Source of the DNA: Beta vulgaris subsp. vulgaris
Taxonomy: Eukaryota > Streptophyta > Magnoliopsida > Caryophyllales > Amaranthaceae
NCBI RefSeq assembly: GCF_026745355.1
Contig: NC_079205.1
Coordinates: 40,577,970 to 40,641,969 of the forward strand
Reading direction: 5' to 3'
DNA length: 64,000 nucleotides
The notes under the pieces are model-generated. The model had not been told where the DNA came from. It searched no databases and worked only from the letters and a program-made list of their open reading frames with translations. Every line of letters starts with the position of its first letter. Positions within the stretch are counted from its first letter, which is position 1. Shown piece by piece: positions 30,039-64,000 of the stretch. A program made the translations under genes and the position numbers.

Positions 30039-32545
30039 TGGTTTAACACCTCGATAATTCTCTCTTTTTAAAAAATACTTTTCAAATATAAAACTTAGAG
30101 AATCATCAAACGATTATCTCCCGTGTGATAACGTATCGACTTATTCAGAATTTTGCAGCGAAAAACATATATTTAAACTTTAGAATTGAAATATGATAAA
30201 TAGCAAAGTAACTTTAAAACCAAACAACATTGTTAACTTCAACTTCAAACCAAACTTAAATATAAATGTATCAATATGCTACACAAGCTCTCTATTCTCG
30301 AAATCCCATGACGCATCATTTGCACACCTATAGCTGTCAATGCACTAGAGAATCTGCTCACTAAGAATGGATCATCACAGGATCAATAAGGCAAAACCAT
30401 GATCAACACATACAAACAAAGCACGTAGTCAGCAAAGCTGAGTACTACATAATAATAAATAAACATTCATAACATGATACTAATAAATATAAAGTATGGA
30501 TAAATAACAACATAACAATCTGCAGATAATTTTTTACTGAACTAAACTTTAACAACTTTTTTATTAGTTTAATGGAATAGTCATCGGACCGAGTTGTCTA
30601 ACTAAAACCAGCCTTCGCCTAAGAAAATGAAATACGGGCACGACTCCATATTCTAAATGACCTACGATATTAATGAACCTTTTAAATAAAATAGGAACGG
30701 TGATCAGTCCAATTCCCAGAAAACGCCATGGCACGCTCACCATGTATCCCAACTCCGGATTGTCTAACTTCAGACGTGCATCAATCTAAAGTTTATGATT
30801 ATCCAAGTTTCACTTTACATGATTTACCAATTATTACTTGTTATGACACACAAGCAACACAGATAATATATAATCAAACATCCACAACTTTATTTATTTT
30901 ATCTTAGAATTAAATAAGTGATCATACAATACCCAAGATTAATTCCTTCTTTAATCCAATCCTTCTTATTCGTTGAACCTAGCCAACAACCAACTTATCT
31001 TTCAAAAACATAGATTATCAATTTACCAAATAAGGCCCACAATCCTCATTGAGTAGTGAAAATAATGATATAAAGGGAACACATGATTCAATCATGATCC
31101 AACTAATAAATATACTAATTCCCTCATGTGAATTAATAAATAAAGTTCCCAACCAACATGCTTGCATCAATATCCATACAAACATGATATCAATCTCATA
31201 ATTAAATCTCATACTTAACATATTCGCACACATGTATAAAACATGTAAAATCCAACATAATAGCAATCATATATGAACTCACAAAGTTCCTATACATGAT
31301 ACTACATAACGTTCCTTTCTAAAATCATGATACTACATCAAACAACACATAGGTATGTACGTACCTTGTGTAGAAAAATTGATAGGCCAGTTTTAACAAC
31401 TTTAGAAGTCGCCTACAGAGAAATCTCCGCCTAAAACAACCAACAGAATTTATAATCAATATTCCAAATAAATTCCAGCAACTTTAAAATACTTTAAATT
31501 CCCTTTAAAAATATTTAAAAGTTGTTTTATTATTAAAACTTCAATTACTTATATTCCTAGCATAGTATTACTATAATAGTCATTAAAATCCATAAAACTC
31601 CATTAATAACAATCTTTCTAAAATTTCAGCAACTTATAATTTATTTAAACTCCCTTTAAACATACTTAAACATGCTTAAATCTATAACTTAAATCATGTG
31701 CTACTATGATTTTCCAATCTTTAACACCCTATAAATTCATGCTTTGATAATTAAAATTGTAATTTAAACATAATCAAATTTGAATTTTTATTCTTTCAAT
31801 ACATAATTTATTTAATTATAGATTCATCACTAAAACAGTAAATTAAAACTTCTAATCATAATTAATACTAAAATAAAACATAAAATCATAATCTTTAATC
31901 AAAACTTGAGGAAGAAGAAAAGAAATCAAACCAACACAAGCAAGAAGTACAAAGGAAGAACGCCGGCCAAGACAGCAGTGGTACAGGCAGCTCAGTGATG
32001 GTGGTTGGTGGTGAAAATGGTGGCAGTGGTGGATTTCTTGGTGAAGAAGAAAGTATTTCTTGAAAGAGGAGAAAAGAAAGTAGGAAAAGAAAAACGTGAA
32101 GAGGGAAAAACTTAAAGATACCGTCGGTTATTGGGGTGAGGGGAGGTGAGAGAATTTTGTGTGGGTAAAATATTTGGGTTTAAAGATATTTATAGGTAAA
32201 TTTTCGTTTTGGGCTTAGGAAAAGGCAATTGGATTTGATGTAGGATTGAATCATGAATAGGATTGATGACTCCTAACATCACTAGAAGTTTCTTTTCCTA
32301 TTAGTATTTGGGTTCCTCAAGCCCATTTAAACTCCTTTTTCAAATCGAAATAGTGTTTCACATATTTTTTAAAGCATGCCTTAACAAAATATTTTAACTT
32401 TCTTAAATACTTAAAATAATTACTCTGACTTTCAAAATAGTCAACCTTTTAAATAAATAAATTATTTTAAACTAAATTATATTTAAATATAAATATATAT
32501 ACACTAAAATATATTTATAAAATCCATAAATTTCAGGAGATTACA
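30039..32545 (-). repeat. 3' LTR of the base-layer gypsy element
   Basis: The right end CAGGAGATTACA (minus TGTAATCTCCTG) is followed by a minus-strand polypurine tract (CTTTTAAGAGAGGTAGAC, about 32546-32563). The left end TGGTTTAACACCTCG aligns with the start TGTAACACCCCC of the LTR at 61533. No coding inside; 2507 bp. The left boundary is inferred from that alignment, and its target duplication cannot be tested because the other end is outside. Confidence 0.7.
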
Positions 32546-32879
32546 GTCTACCTCTCTTAAAAGAAGTTTCATCCCGAAACTTGACACAAAACTCCCATAT
32601 TTCGAAAAATTTGATCCAAATTTTCATATGAGAAATACTTGCGTTACTTCTTGAACACACTTTTCTATGCGGAGAATCTATTTATTTTGCACCAATATGT
32701 GCAAATCGCCAAAATAAGCATAAAAATGCATAAAAGATCTCATAAAAATAGGTAAAAAGGCCGAAATTCTATCACATTCTACCCCCCTTAAAGAAAACGA
32801 GTTACGCCCTCATAACTCACCTCAAGGAAGAAGTCTAGATATTTCTTCTTCATTTCATCTTCGGCTTCGTTGCCTCTTT

Positions 32880-34887
32880 AGACTCGTGGTTAATTAGACC
32901 AAAGTACTTTCATGATATGGACATCCTTATTGCGTGTGCTACGCACCTTCCTGTCAAGGATCTTCACAAGCCTTTCCTCATATGTGAGGCTACTATCCAT
33001 TTGGATCCGCTCAGGCTCCAGAACATGACGATCATCATGGATATATGCTTGAGTTGGGAAATGTGGAACACATCATGCATCTTCTCAAACTTCATTGGCA
33101 ATGCCAACCTGTAGGCTACTTTCCCAATTCGCTCCAAAATCTCATACGGGACTACATATTTGGGACTTAACTTGCCCTTTTCCCAAATCTCATGACGTCC
33201 TTAGTTGGTGATACTTTCAAAAACACTTTATCACCTACTGCAAACTCATCCCCGCATCGTTTTAATTCGGCATAACTCTTTTGCCTATCTTGAGCAGCTT
33301 GAATTCTAGCCTGAATCAGTTTGACATTTTTTACGGTTTCCTCAATAAATCATGTCCCCAAGACTATATTTTCACTAAAATCATTCTAGTAGATGGGGCT
33401 TCTACACTTTCGTCCATATAGTGCGTCAAAAGGTGTCATCTTAATGCTCGCATGATATATTGTTATAAGTTCGATCAGGTCTAATTAGTCCTCCCAACTA
33501 CCTTGGAAATCAATAACGCACGCTCTCAACATATCCTCCATGGTCTGGTTAGTCCTCTCAGTCTGACCACCAGTCGCAGGGTGAAAGGTTGTACTCATCT
33601 TTGATGTTAGCCAAGATTTATTTGGACCTTTTTCCAAATTTTCGAGAGGAACCTCGAATCACGATTAGACATAATATCCCTTGGAACCCCATGCAATCTC
33701 ACTACATGCCTAATGTAAGTCTTTGCAAGTTGCTTCTTTTTCAATGTCTCCTTAATAGGTATGAATATGGAGGACTTCGTCAATCGGTCCACAATAACCC
33801 AAATTGTATCATTGCCACTCCTCGTTCTAGGCAAAGCAGTCACAAAATCCATAGAAATAGAATCTCACTTCCATCCAGGAACCTCTAAGGATTGAACCTT
33901 CCCCATGGGTCTCTTGTGATCTATCTTCACTTTCTGACAGGTTAGCCACATAGACACATATTCGGCTACCTCACGCTTCATGTTTGGCCACCAATAGATA
34001 CCCTTAAGGTCTTTGTACAACTTGTCACCCCCAGGGTGCATAGAATATGGAGTGTTTTTCCCGTCATCCATAAGATGTCTCTTAAGGTCATTAAATTTTT
34101 GTGGTACACACCTTCCCTTAAACCTCAAACTTCCATCATCATGGATCTTAAAGTCGGCTTCCTTACCTTGCTTCATTTTCATTCTTATCTAGGTGCTCAT
34201 TCCAACTTGACCCTCTTTGATCTCGTCGAAAATTGACAACCCCAAAGATAAAGCGCTCAGTCTTGCCTCACTTTCTCCAGCATTTAAAAATTCTAGGCTC
34301 AGCCTTTCCATATCTCGACACAATTCATCAGGGACTATCTAGGCACTCACGCTATGGCTCGACTTTCTACTCAAGGCATCGACAACTATATTTGCTTTCT
34401 CCTCATGATACTGGATGTCTAGGTCATAGTCTTTAATCAATTACAACCATCTTCTCTGCCTCATATTAAGGTCTTTTTAGGTGAAAATGTACTTCAAGCT
34501 CTTATGGTCGGTAAATAATTTACAGGTTACCCCATAGAGGTAATGTCTCCAAATCTTCAATACAAACACTATGGCGGCTAACTCTAGCTCGTCGGTAGGG
34601 TAATTAGCCTCATAAGGTTTCAACTAACGCGACGCATACGCGATCACCTTCCCATTATGTTGTAATACTCATCCCAAACCATTCTTATAAGCATCACTAT
34701 ACACCTCAAATCCCTGATTCTCATCAGGCAGGGTCAAAACAGGTGCGAAGGTTAAACATTCCTTCAAAATCTGAAAGGCTTTTTCACACTTTTCATTCCA
34801 CTCAAATGTTGACTCTTTCTTCATCAAATTGGTCATGGGTTTCGCTATCTTCGAGAAATCTCTCACAAATCTTCTATAATAGCTAGC
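32880..34887 (-). pseudogene. RNase H and integrase part of the base-layer gypsy pol
   Basis: Minus-strand order: RT/RNase H junction YYRRFVRDFSKIAKPMTNLM, RNase H with the catalytic-type YSDA (34669-34887), then a degraded RNase H remainder with [20 protein letters not shown]. The integrase zinc region has KGIYWWPNMKREVAEYV but MWLTC in place of the usual CLTC. The integrase core starts MDFVTALPRTRSGNDTIWVI and carries IMSNRDSRF, where the family normally has SDRD (33607-33852). A chromodomain-like tail follows near 32900-33110. Frameshifts and stops throughout. The rest of pol continues at 57591 after the Athila insertion. Confidence 0.8.
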
Positions 34888-36322
34888 TGACAAGCTAAAG
34901 TTGTATCACCTTATCAAAAGTAATCCTAAAGTCCTCTAACAAACAATAGTCAGGGAAGTAGGGTCGAATCCACAGAGAAACAATGTTCTTTTCCTAATTG
35001 TCAGTCAAATCTAGAGTATAGGAACGAGTTTTTATGAGTAATTATACTAAACTAGACTATAACTATATAAAGAATTATCAATAATAAGAAGTCTAGGGCA
35101 TAGGTTCACCAATGATCAATATTTCGGGATGAAACACAAAAAATCAACAATTAATAATGCAGTTAAATAGGTTGATTCGCTCTCTCAAGTCTAAATCAAC
35201 CATAGAACGGTATTAACAGGCTCTCGCAATTTATTAATACCAACTCTACCTATTGAAACTAGCCCTAATATCAAGTTTATACCTCTTGGCGCATAACCTA
35301 ATATTGCAACACTATAACGATCAAATCTGGCCAAATTCGATTGAATAGACATAAAAACATTCAATAGGAATCAATATACATCAATAAAAATCAATACTTT
35401 ATAAACATCCCTTCCTAATTGATCATGGATCCCTCTAAACCCTAGAAATAGACTACTCAATCATAATTGGGGAAAACATATTCATAATTAAATAAGCAAA
35501 CATGAATTAATAATCAAGGATTGAATAGGAATAAGAAGAGAAGAGAAATAATACCAATTGTAGAACCAATCTTGCAAAATCAAAGCTTCTATTGAAAATT
35601 CAATGTAAATTGGGGAAAAAACTAAACTAGGGTTCTTGACCAATTGAGAGAAAAAGAGTTCTAATCTCCAATGAATTAATGATGGAAAACACCAAATAGA
35701 AAATAAGATAGGAAATAATAATATTCCCCCGAGTCTTTATATCTTTCTATTTCCTAAAACAACTAGAAAAATAGAGTCTAGTTCGTCAAAAGATAAGGCC
35801 CTATTCGACTAAACAACACGGAATAACCCGCGTGCGCGGGTTTTCGTCCTGCAAAACAGCGCCAACTTGTAAAGACCATATCTCGCAAACTAGAAGTCGT
35901 ATCGGGGCGTGTGATACATAGTTGGAAAGCTCTTCAAGTCTAGTTTCAAACCCCACTGGAATCACTAAATTCAGATCTCTGGATAATGAGTTATGATCAA
36001 AAGAGTGCACATGACTCAATTTCCATACTTCTTTTAATATGTTTCCGCTATGTTTGGGTTGCAATCTGACTCGAAGATGCCCTTTGGACTTCTCATTTGA
36101 CTTAGCTCCTTGCTAGATGCTTCTCATGTTTAAGCTTGTCCAATAATACTCCAATTGTGTTCTCAATACCTGAAAACTATCAAAAACACCGAAAACACAC
36201 ACAAGAGTGATATCTTCTCAACTTAAGTAACTATATGCAATTATGGACTAAAAATGCAACTAAATGATCCTAAAATGCAACCTAAATGCATCATGAAATA
36301 CCTATATTCATATGACTCATCA
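34888..36322 (-). repeat. 3' LTR of the Athila element
   Basis: 1435 bp, plus-strand start TGACAAGCTAAAG and end TATGACTCATCA; matches 56161-57590 with scattered substitutions. Contains the GC palindrome CCCGCGTGCGCGGG near 35828. Confidence 0.93.
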
Positions 36323-46159: not shown

Positions 46160-48221
46160 TGTTGAGTCATGTAGTATTTTAATGATTGTAAACAAATGAT
46201 GATTATCTAACTAACATGTGTGTTTGAGATGTGCATATTACATTAACATTAAACAAGTCATCAAAGGTTGAATATATCACATCATGAAGGTTTCCACAAG
46301 TGAAGTTCCTAAAAGAGTTCCTATAAGGAACACAAATAGAGCGGTTCCTAGGTACATCCTATGAGGAACATTGAATATGAAGTTCTGGAGCAGTTCCTGA
46401 GTGGGAGCAGCAATATAACGTTTCAGAGTTGAAACAAGAAGTTCCTGAGCAGGAACTATGAGTGCGAAGTTTCTTAAAGGAACTAGCACACTGAAGTTCC
46501 AAAGGTGGAGCTATCAACATGCGGTTCTTGAGTTGGAGCAGCATGGAGCATGAAGGCAGAAAATATGAGTTTATTTTCTAGGATTCATGTAAGTATATGG
46601 AAACATGAAAGGTAATGGAACAAGGTCTAAAGGAACTCGTAAGGTCAAAGGAACTCGTGGAACTTAGAGTCAAAAGTATTTAAGAGTCAATAAATCTGAT
46701 GCATATTATTATCTTAATCTATAAGAATTTATTAAGAGTTTATTTCTTAATAAATCTCTACGTGGTTAAATATTTATAAATAATATGTGTTAGTTGTTTT
46801 AGGATAAGTTTTAGTTTTAAAATAAAAGATAAGTTTTTAATAAAATCGGTTTCTTTAGGAATCTGATTTTAATTAATTTAATTTTATCTTTTTAGTTTTT
46901 GGAAATAAAAAGCTAGATTTATAATACGTATAATGAGTATTGTTAAAGAAATTGTCTGTCTGTTCCTCTCTAAAGGAACAGACGTGGTAGTCTATTAATC
47001 TAAGTTAAAGGAACTAACTATTAAAAGGAACTAGACTTAGGATGGAGCATTACAACGGTACAGTTATGTCAGTTGAGTAAAATATGCCTAGATTATGGTA
47101 ACCGTTTTATTTAAGGAAAAATCTGATTTTATGGAAAATCTTTTTAAGGAAAAGATTTTATTTTTAAAAGATAATAAAAATATTATTGGTTTTTAGGAAG
47201 AAATTTAAAGATAATATTTTTATTAAAATAATTTAATTTCAGATTTAATAATTAATATGTTTTTAATTAAATCAGATTTTCAAATTAATGCTCAAAGTGG
47301 TTGCTAAAATTTAGGAAGCAGTAACTTAATTCTCTCCCAGTTTAACAGTGATCATGGAGATCATGGGATGTGTTAAGGAACGTGTTCCTTAAGGGAAGGA
47401 ACATCATGGGATAATGGTTTAACCACTAACACATGATTCATCCCACGTTCATTCTAAAAGACTGCTATAAATATACAAGTTCAATTGAGTTTCAATTGTC
47501 TGACTATGTCTTCCATAGTGTTAGTCTTCATAGTTTAGACTTATGTCATTCCATAAGTTTGGCTTAAGGAATAGCGTTACAAAAAAATATTTTTTTATTC
47601 CTTGTTTGAGTCAGTTCCTTTGAGTTTCAAGTTCCTACGAGTGCCATGTTCCTTTACAGTTATTCAGTTTCTATATACTAGAGTTAAACCAAATTATCAA
47701 GCGTCTGTATTTGAGTTTGGGGTTAAAGGGTTTGAGTGAACTCTTGTAATGGGAACTTGGTAAAGGGTTTGAGTGAATTCTTGTATCAGTTCGAGTTAGG
47801 AACTTGAGTAAGTTCGAGTTAGGAACTTGAGATTAATCTTGTTGGTATGCGTAGACTTAGGGTGAAGTCTATCTAGGGGTGAAGGGTTTGAGTAAACCTT
47901 TTGTAAAGAGTTGTGGGAACTCTTGAAAGACTTAGAGTTAAGTCTAGAGTATAGAGTGGAGATTGTGAGAGAGTTGGAGTTCCGAGTGGAACTTGAGTAT
48001 GTAATAGGTTGAATCATAGGAGATTTCCTATTATAGTGAAGAGTTTAAATCCTGAGTAGGTCGTGGTTTTTCTTCTTGTATTGAGACAAGAAGTTTCCAC
48101 GTAAAAATCTCTCTTGCACTTTCAGTTCCTTATTGCTTATGTTTTAAATTCCGCATTATTTGGGCAATAAGTTCCACACTACAATTCACCCCCCTCTTGT
48201 AGTGTTCCTAGTGAAATAACA
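46160..48221 (+). repeat. 5' LTR of the Sirevirus
   Basis: TATA box TATAAATA at 47466-47473; C-rich tract CACCCCCCTCTTGTAGTG near the 3' end. Rich in GGAACT/AGTTCC motifs in both orientations. Confidence 0.95.
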
Positions 48222-51200
48222 ATTGGTATCAGAGCCGGAACTCATTGATAAGCAGGAAACCCTGCTGAGTTAAGTTCCTGCAAGAAGAAAGAACACGTAC
48301 GAGAAAGGAACTCCACCCGATGTCATTCAAAGGAACAAGTGAAGGCTGACTTTTTATACACAATTAAAAGTCACTCAAGGATTATGAACAACCCCTTTGA
48401 TGTAAGTATCTCTTCCTTGAGATATTCTTTATACGCATATATTACATTGGAACTTGTTCCTTATAGTATTTCTAGTAAGATTGTTTTATTTGGCTTTGAT
48501 GTTTTTATAGAAATTTAGGATAACTTTAACATTGTTTTCTAAACAAAATTCAGATTTCCAATTTCTTTAAAATATCAAAGAATCATATACTAGAAATGTT
48601 GAAGGAACAAGTTATATGGAACAATGCATATTTGTGTCTTGGAACTTGGTTTCTCATCTTAAGGAAAATCCATTATTTTTGGCATGTTATATCACGCTCA
48701 TATTATTATTCATTTGCCAAATGATAGTTTTATTATGCATCATGAATATTTGAAATATTTCTTATGTCGGTACATGATGTTCCTTGTTAGTAGTGGTAGA
48801 TATGTGCGTGCATCATGAATATGGATATTTTATGTTGCTCCTACTAACAAGAAAGGACCCAACATATATTTGGGTACCAAAAACCAAGAACTTGCTTATT
48901 TTGCAGGTAATGTGAAAGGAACTGACATCTCTTGATGTAGAGGTTAGTTGTTTCTAGAAAATAGTTCTAGACATGAGTTCCTATGACTACAAAAGCTAGA
49001 AAAAGTATGTAAAAGGTGAAATATATTTCTTAGGAAATTGGGTAATAATCTTTACATACTATATATCTTGGTCATTATTATTATCAAATTTGATTTTTGA
49101 TATCTCTTATAAATACATGATTGAAGAAGGTTATGAAAGAGAAGTTGTTTTATGATCGTTACATATATATGAATTATTTCAATCTAACTTCTCTTCAAGT
49201 TTTTGTGCAAGTAAAATTATATCTTGTAGGTTTGTCTACGGATATAATTAATATTGGTAAAGGAACTTATAGATGTAATAAGAGAATGATTATCAGTTCC
49301 TCTGAAAGGAACAACTTATTGGCACAACTAAATTGATTCAAACGAACTCTAATATAATCACATGAGTATAGTAATTAAGCATGAATCAACAGATCTATTA
49401 ACTGATGTTCATTTTCAAATAATAATAGAAGCTTAATTAAGGCTATAATTTAGGAAGGTTTTAACGAAAAAGATTTTGACTAAGTTAAATCATTTTAAAG
49501 ATTTTTTTGGTTATGGAAAGATTTTAATAAAAAAAAAATTAAATTTTTTATATTTAAAGAAAAACCTTCTTGGATATTATTAAAAAGAACTAACATTAAT
49601 TTTTTATGCTTAACAATTTCCTAGAATTTAGGAAAGTGAGATACTGGATATAACACGTTCAATTAAACGTATACAAAGTGGCGCATGATGTGCTTGTTCC
49701 TCAAGGAAAGGAACAACGTGTAAATCCATGATCCTATGATCTAATCTCATGATTAATCTAAATAACTATTATATAGGATCTTAATTAATGAAGTTCTAAG
49801 TGTCTCTGACTAAGTGATTAAGTGAGTTAAGTAATTAAAGTCTCAGTGCCTTTATTCTCTTATAATAGCAAATTGTTCCTATTGCCTACTTATTCTATTT
49901 CCACCAAATTAAATGCATAAAATCAGCTTCTCAAATCAAGAAACATTGACTATTGATTTGAAGGAAGCGATGGTAAACTAATATTAGTGGAACTACTAAA
50001 TGGTATAGAAAAATACCAACATTTGGAACAAGTTTCTAATTCTTTTGAAATTAATCTTAGTTCACTTGAACAAAGCAGAAGTTCCTCTTCATATGAGACT
50101 ATATTTTTTAAGGAACTTTATTTCATTATATGCTTTAATTATATTATCTCTTTTGACTAACCTACTAATATTAAAATGCACAAAGTATTTCTTTTTGGGT
50201 TCGCTTTATGGATTATATTTCTTAGTTTATGACAACCCAAACTGAAGGAACAAAAATATTTAGTGAGGGGAACAACTCGTAAGATATAGCTCGACAACGA
50301 GTGTTCCAAGCATATGATGATAGACAAATCAACATTGCTCTCGCTATATGCTTATGATGAAGGAACTATAGCTTCAAAAACCAACGTAAAATGGTAAGAC
50401 TGTTTAATAATCAAATGTTGGTAAGTTAAGTTCTTGTTTCATTGTATACATATTTATTGTCGAGTTAATGAAGCACTTTATGTTTACAGTTTTTAAAGTT
50501 CACTAACTCTGTTGTCTTGCAATTAAATTTGTCTTCAATAAAAGCTAGAAATGTCACACTTGAAGGGAATCAAGTAGGGAACACATACTTTGTGGATCTC
50601 AATTTGGTTCCTAACAACATGACATGACTAGTCATTATTGAGGATGATCTACTTATATCTATCAAAATAATAACATTCTAACTTCATCATGGTTGACAAA
50701 CTTAGACCAAGGAACTTGATTATAGGTATATCTTATACCTGGTTCCTAAAGATAAATGTTTGTATACTGTGTCCATGAAGATAGTATGTGATCTTATCTT
50801 CTTTCAAAATTTGGTGTGCATCACAAATTCTTGGAACCTTTTCATATGAATTTGCGTGACATCTTAAGTGTTTAGATTAGAATTTTGAAGGAGATTATTC
50901 TTGTCTATAGTTATTTAAGGAACACCGTATTCTTTTCTTTAATCGCAAAGTAAGTATTCCACATAATGTGAAATCATTGCTAAGAAGATTAAAAGTATAA
51001 GTGTTCATAAATTATTATATTCAAGATCTAACCATGGAACCAAGTTCCAAACAAGTTTGATGATGTATGCAGGAACAAGGAACAAGTAAGAAAAAGCAAT
51101 CGATGTCACTTGTTAAATCATCAACAAAGGATGATTATAAGTTGATCAACAAGACATCCTATGACATCTTCAAAGTAGAAAACACTGGTATTATGTTCTT

Positions 51201-54001: not shown

Positions 54002-56067
54002 TGTTGAGTCATGTAGTATTTTGATGATTGTAAACAAATGATGATTATCTAACTAACATGTGTGTTTGAGATGTGCATATTACATTAACATGAAACAAGT
54101 CATCAAAGGTTGAATATATCACATCATGAAGGTTTCCAACAAGTGAAGTTCCTAAAAGAGTTCCTATAAGGAACACAAATAGAGCGGTTCCTAGGTACAT
54201 CCTATGAGGAACATTGAATATGAAGTTCTGGAGCAGTTCCTGAGTGGGAGCAGCAATATAACGTTTCAGAGTTGAAACAAGAAGTTCCTGAGCAGGAACT
54301 ATGAGTGCGAAGTTTCTTAAAGGAACTAGCACACTGAAGTTCCAAAGGTGGAGCTATCAACATGCGGTTCTTGAGTTGGAGCAGCATGGAGCATGAAGGC
54401 AGAAAATATGAGTTTATTTTCTAGGATTCATGTAAGTATATGGAAACATGAAAGGTAATGGAACAAGGTCTAAAGGAACTCGTAAGGTCAAAGGAACTCG
54501 TGGAACTTAGAGTCAAAAGTATTTAAGAGTCAATAAATCTGATGCATATTATTATCTTAATCTATAAGAATTTATTAAGAGTTTATTTCTTAATAAATCT
54601 CTACGTGGTTAAATATTTATAAATAATATGTGTTAGTTGTTTTAGGATAAGTTTTAGTTTTAAAATAAAAGATAAGTTTTAGTTTTAAAATAAAAGATAA
54701 GTTTTTAATAAAATCGGTTTCTTTAGGAATCTGATTTTAATTAATTTAATTTTATCTTTTTAGTTTTTGGAAATAAAAAGGCAGATTTATAATACGTATA
54801 ATAAGTATTGTTAAAGAAATTGTTCTCTAAAGGAACAGACGTGGTAGTCTATTAATCTAAGTTAAAGGAACTAACTATTAAAAGGAACTAGACTTAGGAT
54901 GGAGCATTACAACGGTACAGTTATGTCAGTTGAGTAAAATATGCCTAGATTATAGGTAACCGTTTTATTTAAGGAAAAATCTGATTTTATGGAAAATCTT
55001 TTTAAGAAAAGATTTTATTTTTAAAAGATAATAAAAATATTATTGGTTTTTAGGAAGAAATTTAAAGATAATATTTTTATTAAAATAATTTAATTTCAGA
55101 TTTAATAATTAATATGTTTTTAATTAAATCAGATTTTCAAATTAATGCTCAAAGTGGTTGCTAAAATTTAGGAAGCAGTAACTTAATTCTCTCCCACGTT
55201 TAACAGTGATCATGGAGATCATGGGATGTGTTAAGGAACGTGTTCCTTAAGGAAGGAACATCATGGGATAATGGTTTAACCACTAACACATGATTCATCC
55301 CACGTTCATTCTAAAAGACTGCTATAAATATACAAGTTCAATTGAGTTTCAAATTGTCTGACTATGTCTTTCCATAGTGTTAGACTTATGTCATTCCATA
55401 AGTTTGGCTTAAGGAATAGCGTTACAAAAAATATATTTTCTATTCCTTGTTTGAGTCAGTTCCTTTGAGTTTCAAGTTCCTACGAGTGCCATGTTCCTTT
55501 ACAGTTATTCAGTTTCTATATACTAGAGTTAAACCAAATTATCAAGCGTCTGTATTTGAGTTTGGGGTTAAAGGTTTGAGTGAACTCTTGTAATGGGAAC
55601 TTGGTAAAGGTTTGAGTGAATTCTTGTATCAAGTTCGAGTTAGGAACTTGAGTAAGTTCGATTAGGAACTTGAGTAAGTTCTTGTTGTGTATGCGTAGAC
55701 TAGGGTGAAGTCTATTAGGGGTGAAGGGTTTGAGTAAACCTTTTGTAAAGAGTTGTGGGAACTCTTGAAAGACTTAGAGTTAAGTCTAGAGTATAGAGTG
55801 GAGATTGTGAGAGAGTTGGAGTTCCGAGTGGAACTTGAGTATGTAATAGGTTGAATCATAGGAGATTTCCTATTATAGTGAAGAGTTTAAATCCTGAGTA
55901 GGTCGTGGTTTTTCTTCTTGTATTGAGACAAGAAGTTTCCAGTAAAAATCTCTCTTGCACTTTCAGTTCCTTATTGCTTATGTTTAAAATTCCGCATTAT
56001 TTGGGCAATAAGTTCCACACTACAATTCACCCCCCCCCCCTCTTGTAGTGTTCCTAGTGAAATAACA
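54002..56067 (+). repeat. 3' LTR of the Sirevirus
   Basis: Nearly identical to the 5' copy; the differences are mostly one-base indels in homopolymers plus a few short indels, including one extra ~27-bp GATAAGTTTTAGTTTTAAAAT unit near 54680. TATA box at 55323-55330. Confidence 0.95.
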
Positions 56068-56137
56068 AAGTGTTCTCTGAGACGAGAGTATATAATCTAG
56101 ACTCTAAAACAATTAAAGAAAATGGAATAAAATCGTT

Positions 56138-56160: not shown

Positions 56161-57590
56161 TGACAGGCTAAAGTCGTATCACCTTATCAAAAGTAATCCT
56201 AAAGTCCTCTAACAAACAGTAGTTAGGGAAGTAGGATCGAATCCACAGAGAAACAGTGTTCTTTTCCTAATTATCAGTCAAATCTAGAGTATAGGAACGA
56301 GTGTTTGTGAGTAATTATACTAAACAAGACTATAACTATATCAAGAATTATCAATAATAAGAAGTCTAGGGCATAGGGACACCAATGATCAATATTTCGG
56401 GGTGAAACACAAAAATCGACAATTAATAATGCAGTTAAATAGGTTAATCTTCTCTCAAGTCTAAAACAACCATAGAACGGTATTAACAGGCTCTCGCGAT
56501 TTATTAATACCAACTCTACCTATTGAAACTACCCTAATATCAAGTTTATACCTCTCGGTGCATAACCTAATATTGCAACACTATAACGATCAAATCTGGT
56601 CAAATTTGATTGAATAGACATAAAAACATTCAATAGGAATCAACATACATCAATAAAAATCAATACTTTATAAACATCCCTTCCTAATTGATCATGGATC
56701 CCCCTAAACCCTAGAAATAGACTACTCAATCATAATTGGGGAAAACATATTCATAATTAAATAAGCAAACATGAATTAATAATCAAGGATTGAATAGGAA
56801 TAAGAAGAGAAGAGAAATAATACCAATTGTAGAACCAATCTTGCAAAATCAAAGCTTCTATTGAAAATTCAATGTAAATTGGGGAAAAAACTAAAACTAG
56901 GGTTCTTGACAATTGAGAGAAAAAGAGTTCTAATATCCAATGAATTAATGATGGAAAACACCAAATAGAAAATAAGATAGGAAATAATAATATTCCCCCG
57001 AGTCTTTATCTCTTTCTATTTCCTAAAACAACTAGAAAAATAGAGTCTAGTTCGTCAAAAGATACGGCCCTATTCGACTAAACAACACGGAATAACTCGC
57101 GTTCGCGGGTTTTCGTCCTGCAAAACAGTGTCAACTTGTAAAGACCATATCTCGCAAACTAGAAGTCGTATCGAGGCATGTGATACACTGTTGGAAAGCT
57201 CTTCAAGTATAGTTTCCTACCCCACTAAAATCACTAAATTCCGACCTCTGGATAATGAGTTATGATCAAAATAGTGCACATGACTCAATTTCCATACTTC
57301 TTTTAATATGTTTCCGCTATGTTTGGGTTGCAATCTGACTCGAAGATGCCCTTTGGACTTCTCATTTGACTTAGCTCCTTCCTAGATGCTTCTCGTGCTT
57401 AAGCTTGTCCAATAATACTCCAATTGTGTTCTCAATACCTGAAAACTATCAAAAACACCGAAAACACACACAAGAGTGATATCTTCTCAACTTAAGTAAC
57501 TATATGCAATTATGGACTAAAAATGCAACTAAATGATCCTAAATGCAACCTAAATGCATCATGAAATACCTATATTAATATGACTCATCA
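56161..57590 (-). repeat. 5' LTR of the Athila element
   Basis: 1430 bp partner of 34888-36322. Terminal motifs TGACAGGC and ATGACTCATCA on the plus strand; directly followed by the target duplication CTAGC. Confidence 0.93.
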
Positions 57591-59900
57591 CTAGCTAGAC
57601 CTAGGAAACTTCTAATATCTGACACATTCTTTGGAGTTGGCCACTTGCTCACAACTTGAATCTTTACAGGATAACAGATAATTATATTGCTGCGGTTTGA
57701 CTCCTTCCTTAAACACATAGTGACCCAAAAACGCTACCTTCTCCAAACGAAACTCACACTTAGAGAACTTGGCATATAATTGATTCTTTCTAAGCATCTC
57801 CAAAATAATTCTCAAGTGCTCTTCATGCTCTACCTCGTTCCTCGAATATATCAATATATCATCAAAGAAAACCATCACAAACTTATCTAGAAACTCATGG
57901 AAAATCCTATTCATTAAGTCCATAAATATGGCAAGAGCATTGGTTAACCCAAATGGCATTACAGTGAACTCATAGTGACCATAACGCGTCATAAAAGCAG
58001 TCTTAGGTACATCCTTATCAGTTACCCACTAGTAGAATAAATGCTATTTGCTGCAGTCAAAAAGTGACCTATTGCTGCGGTTTTGGGCCGCAACAATTAA
58101 GGGCGCAGCAATAGGTAATAATTATATTGTTGCGATTTAAAACCGCAGCAATATATGTCAGATTTTGCTGCGGTTTTCTATGCCAAACCGCAGCAATATA
58201 ATTATGTGTTATCAGTTTATAAGAGAATATTGCTGCGGTTTTGGCCTAGAAACCGCAGTAATATTCCTTTTTTTTATTATTTACTTAAGTATATTGCTGC
58301 GGTTTTGACCTAAAAACCACAGCAATATGTTAGAAGACAAGTAAAAAAAAGATTTTTTCTTTTTTGCTATTAAATTTGAAAAATTAGAAGCAGACTATCC
58401 ACCAAATTCACATAACAAATGAGCATCTTATCTTTCAAGATAAGACCACATTCATTCACAATGAAACTAACAATAAATTAAAAAAATTGAAACTCCTAAC
58501 AGATTATAACAGTAAGATGATGAAAATTATAACAATATCTAAAATCAAAGAACTAAATCTAAAAAATTATAACAATACAAGAAGAAAATCAGAAAATCAA
58601 ATCTAAAAAAAAAACTAAAACCGAAGAATTAAATTTAAGAAAAAAAAGAACTAAAACACACCCAGATCTGCTTTGCTGGGCTTCTCCGTCGCCGGTTTCG
58701 TGTGTAATTCAAATCATTTCATTGTTTTTGCCTTAGCATTGTTATCATAAAACTAGCTCATGCATTAGCATTACATATGGACACATTAGCTATTATCTGA
58801 ACGCACCCTGCATCATGACATCCAGTATATCTTTTGGCTCCACTTTCTTCTTTACTTGTGTGCGTCCAACCAAATTTTAAAACCACGAGCGACGACCGAC
58901 GACCCAGAGTTGTAGACCACGAGCGACGGTCGGAAATGGCTGGACGACGAGCGACGACCGAGATGGTTGGACGACGAGCGACGACCAAGATCAGTAGGTC
59001 GCAAGTGACGAAGAACGAAGAACAATGAAGAGGAGGAGAGAGAAAAATCGGAGATGATTGTCCGTGGTTGACATACAAAATGAGGGAGAGATCTGGTAAA
59101 GTAAGAAGGAGGGAGGAAACCGGATGAGTGAGAGAGGGAAGGAAACCGGATGAGTGAGAGAGGGAAGGAAACGGCAGTGAGGGAGGAGGGAAGAGGGAAG
59201 GAGTGAGAGAGACATAGAAAACCACGCCTTAAAACCTATTCCTCAAAAAAAACCCTAATAACCCTATTGCTGCGGTTTTTTCTAGAAACCACAGCAATAG
59301 GTTTAAATAATATTTTTTAATATTATTTTAATATATTGCTGCGATTTTTGCCAGAAACCGCAGCAATATATTTGGTCAAATAGTCAAAAATTTCGAAAAA
59401 TTTCTGCTGAAACAATATTGCTGCGGTTTTCGGTTGAAACCGCAGCAATATGGTTATTTTATATTTTTCTTTTTTTTTAACGTGATATATTGCTGCGTAT
59501 GGGTAAAACCGCAGCAATATCACCGCAGCAAATAGCATTTATTCTACTAGTGACCCTCAACTGATGATACCCCCAACGCAAATCAATTGTTGAGAACACA
59601 CTCGCTTCATTTAACTGATCGAATAGGTAATCTATTCTAGGCAAAGGATACTTGTTCCTGATGCTTACATTGTTCAATTCTCTATAGTCGATACACAACC
59701 TCATACTCCCATCCTTTTTCTTCATAAACAATACAGGAGCTTCTCAAGGTGATTCACTCGGCCTAATATAATCCTTCGCCAGCAACTCCTGCAATAGCAT
59801 CTTCTACTCACTCATCTCAGGTGATGGCATTGTATAAGGTGCCTTAGATATAGGTGCAGTTTCAGGAACTAAGTCTATGGTGAACTCAGTCGCTCTCACA
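57591..59900 (-). pseudogene. RT domain of the base-layer gypsy element, split by CACTA
   Basis: The upstream half (59553-59900) includes [34 protein letters not shown] and [15 protein letters not shown]. The downstream half (57591-58026) includes [20 protein letters not shown], the catalytic [19 protein letters not shown] and [14 protein letters not shown]. Between them is a CACTA element at 58027-59552, and the frame is in register on both sides of it. In-frame stops also occur upstream of 59731 and near 57650. The 3' side ends at the Athila insertion and resumes at 34887. Confidence 0.88.
58027..59552. mobile_element. Non-autonomous CACTA (En/Spm) element
   Basis: Begins CACTAGTAGAATAAATGCTA and ends in its inverse; the 28 terminal bases are perfectly inverted. 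The 3-bp target duplication ACC is on both sides (58024-58026, 59553-59555), as expected of CACTA transposons. Both subterminal regions are packed with TATTGCTGCGGTTT motifs in both orientations, forming about nine short hairpins (58069-58330 and 59263-59530), like transposase-binding subterminal repeats of Spm. The 1526-bp interior has no transposase; its centre (about 58660-59225) is a non-TE-looking segment with GACGACGAGCGACGACC and GAGAGAGGGAAGGAAAC repeats. Confidence 0.93.
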
Positions 59901-60228
59901 TGTGGCATACTCGAAATCTCACTTGAAAATACATCTATAAACTACTTCACAATTGGGACATCCTTGATATTCACCCCAACTTCCGTACTCACATCCTGCA
60001 CACTACAAAAAATTAACTCACGCCCCTTCTTCATCAACTTTCTCACTTGCATCGCAAAGATAACCCCAAAGTTCTTAGGCTTCCCAAAACACCTATAGGA
60101 GGTCAATAATCCCAAAGGATTTCTCAACACTACCTTCTGAACCTCACAGTCTACATTAGCCTTGTAGAGACTTAGATCAGTTCATTCTAAGAATAACATT
60201 TAGGTCTCCCAAATTGAACTCTATTAAA

Positions 60229-61532
60229 TCAGATGGAAATAAACAGTCTCCTATCTTCAGAGGCAAATTTTACACAATTGGTACACCTTATGATCTTCCC
60301 AGTAGGTATAGTGATAGGTAAGTCAATTTCTTCATAGTCTACTAACTCCAGACTCTTAAGGAAAGATGACAACACAAAAGAATAAGTCTCCCCCGAATCA
60401 AACAATGTTTCAATAAGGACGAAGTTAATAGAAAATGTACCGAAAACTATGTCGACAGATCTTTCAGCTTCGTTGCGACTCATCACGTACAGTTTACATG
60501 CAGCCTTATTCTGGTTGAGATTCTCACTAGGAGGCTTACTATAGTTTCCTTGGTTGTTCTGCAACCCTACAGGCTCAGAATCTTGGTTCCTGACTGGTTG
60601 AACCCTGATCTGACCTGGTTACCACTCTCATTGCCATTCTGCTCCTTCCTTTGCTTAATAAAGCACTCATACTCCCTATGGCCCTTCTTCTGGCAGTAGC
60701 TACAAGTTACTTGGTCTCCCTTAAAGTCTCTACATGGGTGGTTGTTGTTACACTTCTTGCAGTGATACACTCTCTCAGTTCGACCCTTATTGTTGTTGTC
60801 CTAGTGATTCCTCCCTTGGAAATTTCCATTCCCATTCCTATTTCTCTTAAAGTTCCACTAGTTTCCCCGGCATTATAATTCTTCCTTTTTTCACCTACCA
60901 CAAAATTCTTTTTATCCCGTCTCAACCAAAGTCCATAAATGTCGGTGGCTCTCCCATACACAATATCTAGGGATGTCAAGGTCTCACCTTTTAACTCCAG
61001 CTGTATCTCATCAGTCAACCCCTACTCAAACCTCTGAGCCTTCAACTCCTCAGTAGCTACAACCTCGGGTGCAAAGCTTGACAGTGCTATAAACTTGTTG
61101 TAATACTCAAAGATGGTCATACTAGCTACACATCCTAAGGTTCATGAACTCCTGGGCACTCTGTTTCCTCATAAACGCAGGGTAAAACTTCCCCCTTAAG
61201 GCAATAACAAAAGCATCCCAAGTGAATCCTTCCACAGCACTCAGTCTGGCTTCATTTTCTCTCCACCACAAGTCAGCCTCATCCTTAAGGTATAGCACAG
61301 TTTGACCCACTCGCATGCCCTCGGGACAGTTCATAGCCCCAAAGATTTTCTCAAACTCTCTGATCCAGTTTTCAAGGAAGGTAGGATCAGCTTGCCCCTT
61401 ATAGTATGGTGGCTTAACCTTAGCTAAACTCTCACACATGTTCCCAACAATATCGGGACACTCAACTCCCTCTTGAGCCAGTTTTTCCACCAAGAGGCGA
61501 ATATCAGCAGCTAGGTCGTTGTTGTTGTTAGC
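60229..61532 (-). pseudogene. gag and protease of the base-layer gypsy element
   Basis: Gag runs leftward from 61532, where another LTR interrupts it, with ADIRLLVEKLAQEGVECPD, KPPYYKGQADPTFLENWIRE and DLWWRENEARLSAVEGFTWD (61122-61493), a frame break near 61120, and a CCHC knuckle CSYCQKKGHREYEC near 60640-60710. The protease (60229-60564) has LFDSGETYSFVLSSFLK, with DSGE where the family usually has DSGA. Frames shift several times and the N-terminus is beyond the inserted LTR. Confidence 0.82.
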
Positions 61533-63407
61533 TGTAACACCCCCAAATTACTCACTTTTAAATAAATAATTTAATAAATAATATTTGAGTAATTTAGGAG
61601 TATTACCGCCACGTGACTAACACGCTTTCGGCAACCAACTACTAACTAACAAAATAATTGCAGCGGAAGACTTTAACCAAAAATAATAATACTTCTTTAT
61701 TAATAAAAGTAAATATTGTCTCAAAACTCAAAATAAACAAAAACACTCTAATCTAGGTGAAGATCCCTTCCTAGTATGCTCCCATGCACATCCAAATTCA
61801 CCTGCAAATCTGCTTACCAAAAAGGTAAACAGGCAAAGCCAAATAGGAAAAAGGAAATACGCGTCAGTATAAAACTGAGTACGAAATATACTAGATAAGT
61901 AAACATTTGTTAGTTCATAACAATTTTTCTTTCGAAAACTCCATTACCAATAATTCAAGAATAACTCTTTAAGAATAAACTATTTTCAAACACTTAATAA
62001 TAATTCAAGAATAACATTTTAAGAAAAACTCTTTCCAAACACTTAATAATAATTCAAGAACAACTTTTAAGAAAAACTCTTTTCAAACACTTAATAATAA
62101 TTCAAGAATAACTTTTAAGAACAAACTCTTTCCAAACACTTGAATAATAATTCAAGAAAACCTTTTAAGAACAAACTCTTTCCAAACACTTGAATAATAA
62201 TTCAAGAATAACCTTTTAAGAATAAACTCTTTCCAAACAACTTGGATTAAAAATAATCCTGAAAACAATTCCTCTTCTTATCTCCCCTTCTATTTTGCTA
62301 AGTGTGCACACCCCCCAAGCTAGTCATCCCATCACGGAGCTATATCAAGGGGTAACTATAATTGCCAACAAGTGGACTTTGAATCTCTTGATATTAATCA
62401 AGCGGAAATAATAATAATATGACTTGTAAGTCATGAATAAACCTCCTTTCCTCATAAACAACTTTTTGAACATTCAAAGTTCATAAAAACCAATCAACCT
62501 TTCCTTGTAAAAATAATTTAATTTTCCAAAAAGGATAACAAAACTTCTATATAAAAATGATTGATAAAATCATTCCTTCTTTTCACTTTCAAGAGTGAAT
62601 AATAAAAATTGTAACCATTTTAAACCAAATTTCTAAACCAATCCAACCATAAAATCAATAAACAACTTTATCATATAAACCACATTTTAAAAGATCTAGC
62701 TACATAACGTACCTTGATCTTGCACAAAATAATACTAGTATCTTCACTTATTCTTATACTTGAGCTTTCTCATACCAACCAACAAGCAATCTACCACATG
62801 AACTTAATCATGAATTTAAACATGAATGATCTATCATGAGCATAATATTTTTGAGTAAGAAATATGAAAATATTTTTCTTAACAAAGAAAATTGAAACTT
62901 GAATAAGAAATATAAAACTAGAATAATAGGAAGAGAAAGAAGAACTTTGAAGTAAGAGAGTATGAATTCTTCAAAGTTTTTGTGTGGAAAAGATGGCTTA
63001 AGGTATGGGGTATTTATAGGAGTAGAATAGGTAGTACTTAATTTCAAAAATTAAATAGTTTGTAACCTTCACCATAAATTAGGGATTAAACCAAGATTTG
63101 TAACTCCATCATAAATTTGGAAGTTATAGGAAAACAAAACTCCCCCCATTCACCATAAATCCCGTAGGAATATATGGCCCTAAAAAAAAATTTTTTTTTT
63201 TTTTTTTTTTTTGGTTTTCTGAAATTTTTTGACTAGGATTTAATACCAAAAGCTTAACAAATCCAATTTTGGCGCCATATTCCCGCCAAAACAATTAAAA
63301 TCATTGAAAATACTAAAATACCCTTTGCTTAAAATATTTATTTTAGAAAATAAATATAAATAAATATTTTATTATTTAAATAAATACTAAAAATATGGGG
63401 TATTACA
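61533..63407 (-). repeat. 3' LTR of a second long-LTR gypsy element, inserted in gag
   Basis: Plus-strand ends TGTAACACCCCC and GGGGTATTACA form the inverted terminal motif; a minus-strand polypurine tract (CTTTTAAGGGGGTAGAC) follows at about 63408-63424 and chromodomain coding lies beyond. The left side cuts the gag frame of the base-layer element at 61532. Related to the LTR at 30039-32545 but 630 bp shorter. Confidence 0.85.
61948..62244. repeat. Six ~49-bp tandem repeats in the LTR
   Basis: Units read like AATAATTCAAGAATAAC..TTTTAAGAA.AAACTCTTTCCAAACACTT, with one- to three-base differences. The related LTR at 30039 does not show this array. Confidence 0.9.
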
Positions 63408-63424
63408 GTCTACCCCCTTAAAAG

Positions 63425-64000
63425 AAGTTTCGACCTCGAAACTTAAGACAAAAAGTCATAAACACTTTCCAAAAACGGATTAAAATTCAAAATTGTAGTT
63501 TCTGACTCAAATGCTCATGTCTAAAATGCATATATGACTCAAAAATATGCTAAAATGCATAACTATAGTAAAGCGCGAAACTCTATCGCATTCTACCCCC
63601 CTTAAAAGGAGTTACGACCCCGTAACTCGACAACTAACCTCGAAAACAACGCCGGATATTTCTTGCGCATATCCGCTTAACTTCCCATGTTGCTTCCTCA
63701 ATATGATGGTTTACCATAATACTTTGACTAATCTTACATCCAAGCTGAGTACTTCTAACTTTACTATCAAGGATTCTTACAGGTCTTTCCTCGTAAGTCA
63801 AACTATCATCTAATTCAATGGCCTCAGGTTGCAGCACATGAGACACATCCGAAATATACTTCCTTAACTAGATATATGGAAAACATCATGACTCGACTTA
63901 AAACATTTGGCAAATCAACTTATATGCCACTTTTTCGAACTTCTTTAACACCTCATATGGCCCGATATACTTTGGACTTAACTTTCGCTTCTTCCCAAAT
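63425..64000 (-). pseudogene. Integrase C-terminus/chromodomain of the right-edge gypsy element
   Basis: The minus strand carries SHVLQPEAIELDDSLTYEER, PVRILDSKVRSTQLG and NHHIEEATWEVKR (63634-63846), the well-known end of chromovirus integrase with its chromodomain-like tail; further integrase C-terminal sequence continues to the window edge in a different frame. The coding end faces the 3' LTR at 63407. Confidence 0.82.

Follow-up and report, generated by a model that had tools for sequence, protein, structure and literature searches.

A non-autonomous CACTA transposon with paired subterminal motifs in a retrotransposon reverse transcriptase gene of Beta vulgaris

Within the 64-kb stretch of Beta vulgaris DNA analysed here (the window), a segment of 1,526 bp at positions 58027–59552 begins and ends with the same terminal sequence and carries, inside each end, a series of motifs arranged in inverted pairs that can fold into hairpins. 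What kind of element is this, and what might the pairs do? A preliminary description had assigned the segment to the CACTA transposons and offered two functions for the pairs, dimer binding by a protein or a structured transcript that could feed small-RNA production. We assign a probability of roughly 0.93 to the reading that this is a non-autonomous CACTA element in the reverse transcriptase (RT) gene of a Ty3/gypsy-type retrotransposon, that a TNPA-like protein would be supplied to it in trans, and that its motif pairs are double sites for dimers of that protein.

Boundaries, insertion site and class of the element

The two ends of the element are identical over 28/28 bp (CACTAGTAGAATAAATGCTATTTGCTGC), with the left terminal inverted repeat (TIR) at 58027–58054 (+ strand) and the right at 59525–59552 (− strand). 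Past the 28-bp match there is one mismatch followed by two matches, and a second comparison gave 31 nt at 97%. An exact 3-bp target-site duplication, ACC, is found on either side (58024–58026 and 59553–59555, assigned to neither strand), in the context TTATCAGTTACC / element / ACCCTCAACTGA. The inner 10 bp of the left TIR (58045–58054), TATTTGCTGC, are a variant of the subterminal motif described below, and the right TIR has the same inner end, a feature on which the preliminary description was silent. Since the inner end of the TIR is itself a motif variant, TIR and array seem to belong together as a single system.

The part of the host RT downstream of the insertion occupies 57612–58028 (− strand) and matches the Pfam family RVT_1 with an E-value of 4.1e-21, while the upstream part starts at 59553. 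When 48 and 60 bases of the two flanks were joined through a single ACC, they gave one open RT frame, for which 35 residues were listed, that adjoins and falls within the RVT_1 match. Because leaving out the element together with one ACC yields an open Ty3/gypsy RT frame, the boundaries must be right; those of the preliminary description were exact, and its perfect 28-bp terminal repeat and exact ACC duplication stand as well. Pfam matches to a protease (60229–60618) and to gag (61122–61547, slightly under the curated cut-off) were also found, and from these and the RT frame we label the host, by its apparent coding content, as a Ty3/gypsy-type retrotransposon on the minus strand. The element is thus inserted in the RT gene of an older retrotransposon of this type. 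There is one copy of the element in the 64-kb window, and the perfect ends and exact duplication of this copy make recent movement plausible.

CACTA elements are described as having TIRs of 10–28 bp and subterminal units of 10–20 bp in direct and inverted orientation (PMC7139988), and such units have served as a search criterion for the superfamily (PMC8978399). The element has TIRs that start with CACTA and are 28 bp long, a 3-bp duplication (ACC) and subterminal repeats (9 forward and 10 reverse sites, forming 9 pairs); by its ends, duplication and repeats it is a CACTA (En/Spm) transposon, as had been proposed. A transposase of the Transposase_21/TNPD type is needed by autonomous members only, and no match to a CACTA transposase was found among the 20 stop-to-stop open reading frames (ORFs) of at least 120 aa in the window. 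Two of these lie in the interior of the element, and neither matched any Pfam family at E-values up to 0.01. As far as ORFs of at least 120 aa show, the element is therefore non-autonomous. Its interior (58328–59264) consists of an A-rich part followed by a repeat-bearing part, in which imperfect repeats of CGACGA type (58856–59010) precede 26-bp tandem repeats (59111–59162). These repeats are perhaps captured host sequence.

Paired subterminal motifs and their published counterparts

With up to three mismatches allowed, the element contains 9 sites of the 14-mer TATTGCTGCGGTTT in forward and 10 in reverse orientation. All but one of these 19 sites make up nine convergent pairs, five at the left end (58070–58327) and four at the right (59265–59519), the remaining reverse site lying in the interior at 58618. 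The earlier count of about nine hairpin pairs, five left and four right, is upheld. Dinucleotide shuffles of the element contained on average 0.07 sites in forward and 0.19 in reverse orientation, and pairs occurred in 0/300 of them. The rest of the window (1–57600 joined to 59561–64000) contained 10 sites at the same threshold and no pair. The sequence TGCTGCGGTTT, sought with at most one mismatch, occurs 16 times in the window, where 0.50 sites would be expected, and 15 of the 16 are inside the element.

The first left pair (58070–58113) consists of motifs at 58070–58083 (+) and 58100–58113 (−), separated by 16 bp, with a degenerate third motif copy between its arms. It is followed by pairs at 58125–58153 (gap 1 bp) and at 58163–58198, 58228–58263 and 58292–58327 (gap 8 bp in each). 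At the right end, the pairs at 59265–59299, 59334–59368 and 59416–59450 have gaps of 7 bp and the last, at 59488–59519, a gap of 4 bp. The spacer, previously given as 5–15 bp, thus ranges from 1 to 16 bp, with a gap of 7–8 bp in six of the nine pairs, for which the motif starts are 21–22 bp apart, or about two helical turns. By title, none of the literature matches listed for TTGCTGCGG together with CACTA concerned transposons, and none of those listed for GCTGCGGTT concerned plant transposons. Neither the paired motifs nor the 28-bp terminus had an exact match in viral contigs, and an exact scan for the paired motifs of contigs in viral and prokaryote collections also gave 0 matches; these results have no bearing on copy number in plants.

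The preliminary description had set the head-to-head pairing against the arrangement in known elements. This contrast does not hold, as stem-loop motifs have already been described in the Tgm elements of soybean. Tgmt* is reported to have 28 subterminal repeats forming 14 stem-loops, much like the paired motifs here, and Tgm1 a similar pattern (PMC2613891); in TgmR*, direct and inverted motifs likewise form stem-loops (PMC4219821). Both Tgmt* and TgmR* share the 3-bp target duplication with the present element (PMC2613891, PMC4219821). Tgmt* differs, however, in its 13-bp imperfect TIRs, its asymmetric arrays (2 stem-loops at the left and 12 at the right), its motif (TTGGCAG/AATCTTACAG) and the transposase that it encodes (PMC2613891).

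The Jozin elements of Chenopodium, as described in PMC8978399, have 28-bp TIRs and 19–23 motif copies divided between both ends; the TIRs start with CACTAGTAGAA in two of the four species listed, as well as in one C. quinoa element. As in the element here, the TIR end is related to the subterminal motif (PMC8978399): in our own comparison of the letters given in that paper, the four TIRs closed with 9 letters of their own motif exactly in two cases, with one mismatch in one and loosely in one. Jozin differs in its motif (TATTTGTAACTA, TATTTGTAACGG or TATTTGCGTCAC) and in being represented by putatively functional elements of 8–10 kb with Transposase_21 (PMC8978399). LsC1 of lettuce is non-autonomous, with 28-nt TIRs and an ACC target duplication as here, but it is 3.9 kb long and its TIRs are imperfect and start with CACTACTNGAAA (PMC8195511); the likeness rests on TIRs and duplication, not on the subterminal motif. 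Somatic excision of LsC1 has been shown (PMC8195511). Tetu1 of sunflower is likewise non-autonomous with a 3-bp duplication, and its subterminal units of 9–11 bp in both orientations are alike by description, not by sequence (PMC7139988). The En/Spm element of maize also has subterminal motif arrays, recognised by TNPA, but its motif is 12 bp long and of a different sequence (PMC2613891).

Paired, hairpin-forming subterminal repeats are thus already published for CACTA elements, and the present element is a well preserved but ordinary example. What is particular to it is the sequence of the motif, the near-strict alternation of orientations and the even division of the pairs over both ends. 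General ideas on CACTA elements are unchanged by it. Its use lies rather in being a clean non-autonomous example with regular paired subterminal sites, which may aid annotation of the family in this genome. It could also serve as a defined substrate on which to examine any preference of TNPA-like proteins for pairs spaced by about two helical turns. The observation in the preliminary description is confirmed overall, while its interpretation holds in part: the class and the dimer binding stand, and the contrast with known elements falls.

Protein sites, palindromic units and hairpins

The TNPA protein of Spm binds motif pairs as a dimer. In the present element, the pairs most likely act as double sites to which a TNPA-like protein, supplied in trans, would bind, although neither such a protein nor an autonomous copy was seen in the DNA analysed. 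The 28-bp ends would be cut by a CACTA transposase whose gene lies elsewhere, while a TNPA-like partner from an autonomous relative would bind the subterminal motifs, with TATTGCTGCGG as its putative target. A dimer would then find its double site in each convergent pair, where the spacing of the motifs is about two helical turns (21–22 bp from start to start in 6/9), and dimer-bound pairs could unite the left and right arrays in a single complex. The capacity to form hairpins would in that case be a by-product of the inverted arrangement, with no need for use as RNA. TNPA is reported to recognise the subterminal repeats of Spm/En (PMC2613891). Among the literature matches listed for head-to-head or tail-to-tail binding by TNPA, none offered data on such binding for a CACTA element, as judged by title and start of abstract.

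Evidence on the role of the pairs comes from 13 motif positions that differ from the consensus within a pair. In 0/13 cases is the change matched in the partner arm; the changes fall in one arm only, as would be expected of arms that are separate protein sites. Such unmatched changes speak mildly against selection for a stem. The argument is a mild one because 13 positions are few and because G-U pairs remain: pairing of this kind is kept at four positions in RNA of the + strand, at four others in RNA of the − strand, and at five in neither.

The bases next to the motifs lend some weight to the opposite view. Over 4 nt on the flanks, 23/36 positions are symmetric within pairs, whereas permutation gave a mean of 15.2 (p = 0.004). 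With longer flanks the effect wanes, to p = 0.02 at 6 nt, 0.20 at 8 nt and 0.22 at 10 nt, and two gapped versions gave p = 0.17 and 0.045, none of these p values being corrected for several tests. Pair-specific symmetry of the flanks is not predicted by separate protein sites alone. One possibility is that pairs are renewed as palindromic arm-loop-arm units, with the hairpin, as DNA or RNA, either selected or a product of the copying; on this reading the flanking bases are symmetric pair by pair because of that renewal. The six loops of 7–8 bp are indeed more alike than shuffled loops (the observed score was reached in 25/5000 shuffles), and since the loops resemble one another to this degree, whole arm-loop-arm units have probably been copied. 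The constant spacing may thus be partly inherited through unit copying instead of being selected. Renewal as palindromes in the full sense nevertheless seems improbable to us.

Just as improbable, in our estimate, is a role for the hairpins as RNA, in which read-through transcripts would fold and, once diced, supply small RNAs for silencing the family or for action on the host. The arrays do fold far better than their shuffles, with z-scores of −12.0 on the left and −8.75 on the right and 0/200 shuffles as good in each case, but folding of this strength is what motifs in inverted order entail. The short, pair-specific symmetry outside the motif would suit such a role, as would the 4/13 variant positions that keep G-U pairing on either RNA strand; the lack of any matched change in the partner arm would not. 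The single hairpins are also short: folded together with 4 nt of flank, each forms 12–19 base pairs. A microRNA can be carried by CACTA elements, as rice miR820 illustrates, but pre-miR820 is described as lying in a target-gene-like part of its element, outside the subterminal array (PMC3459959). A search of Rfam at E-values up to 1 listed 64 matches, of which 0 reached the gathering score, so that Rfam precursor families were rejected for the arrays and no membership in a described microRNA precursor family could be assigned at that score. The best match was to MIR6274, with 38.2 bits against a gathering score of 80, and in the six Rfam alignments that we inspected, the likeness was due to pairing more than to letters. 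Between the two functions offered earlier, dimer binding is thus the better supported, with the structured transcript as an improbable alternative.

It is considerably less probable that the arrays extrude as DNA cruciforms recognised by the transposition machinery. All nine pairs are inverted and have short symmetric flanks, and CACTA transposition is said to use a TIR–TIR hairpin together with transposase on the subterminal repeats (PMC7139988). However, that hairpin concerns the TIRs and not pairs inside one array (PMC7139988), and no experiment on cruciforms within arrays appears in the passages of the CACTA literature consulted. Furthermore, the unmatched arm changes tell against extruded stems, as do one pair with a gap of 1 bp and another with a gap of 16 bp and a third copy between its arms. 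That there is no transposon here at all, and an unrelated cluster of palindromes merely lies beside chance CACTA ends, is hardly tenable: the case is based on a single copy only, but the 28-bp perfect ends, the exact 3-bp duplication and the motif arrays inside both ends stand against such a coincidence, and the restored RT frame of the empty site contradicts it.

A probably templated copy outside the element and other features of the window

An inverted copy (29/30 identical) of bases 58184–58213 in the left array of the element lies outside the element at 57670–57699 (− strand), 327 bp away and inside the host RT/RNase H frame. It includes one more perfect motif (57685–57698), which is absent from the preliminary description. 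Past this 30-bp copy, the conserved-looking RT/RNase H frame resumes in another register. In comparisons of the element with ten further 1-kb segments of the window, allowing a single mismatch, the longest matches were 13–18 bp, and for the right flank 12 bp. The copy is probably filler, templated by the neighbouring element while a double-strand break was being repaired, although another copy of the CACTA family could have been the template instead. In rice, filler was reported for 58/94 excisions of DNA transposons, with an average length of 13 bp (PMC4423477).

Several other retrotransposon features surround the insertion. Direct repeats at 34888–36322 and 56161–57590 are 96.1% identical, have TG...CA ends and carry CTAGC on their outer sides; they are probably the long terminal repeats (LTRs) of a minus-strand retrotransposon that lies inside the gypsy element hosting the CACTA insertion; the RT/RNase H frame of this older element seems to resume at 34887 and below. 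A second pair of direct repeats, at 46160–48222 and 54002–56068, also 96.1% identical, has TGTTG...AACA ends and AAGTG on the outer sides, and a primer site that we take to be of tRNA-Met type follows the left copy. These are probably the LTRs of a retrotransposon nested within the one at 34888–57590. The segments 32413–33188 and 63288–64000 are about 63% alike across 801 columns in direct orientation, and may be the old LTRs of the outer gypsy element, into which the CACTA transposon inserted.

Elsewhere in the window, the segment 23785–24285 (+) matches the Pfam family UPF0020 (E = 6.1e-6). The segment 27142–27741 (+) has no Pfam match at 0.01, but it has homologues named as tRNA (guanine-10) methyltransferases; among the 120 of 146 that were listed, the named organisms are plants only, the best named being Striga hermonthica at 76%. 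The two segments are probably two exons of a TRMT11-like plant tRNA (guanine-10) methyltransferase gene.
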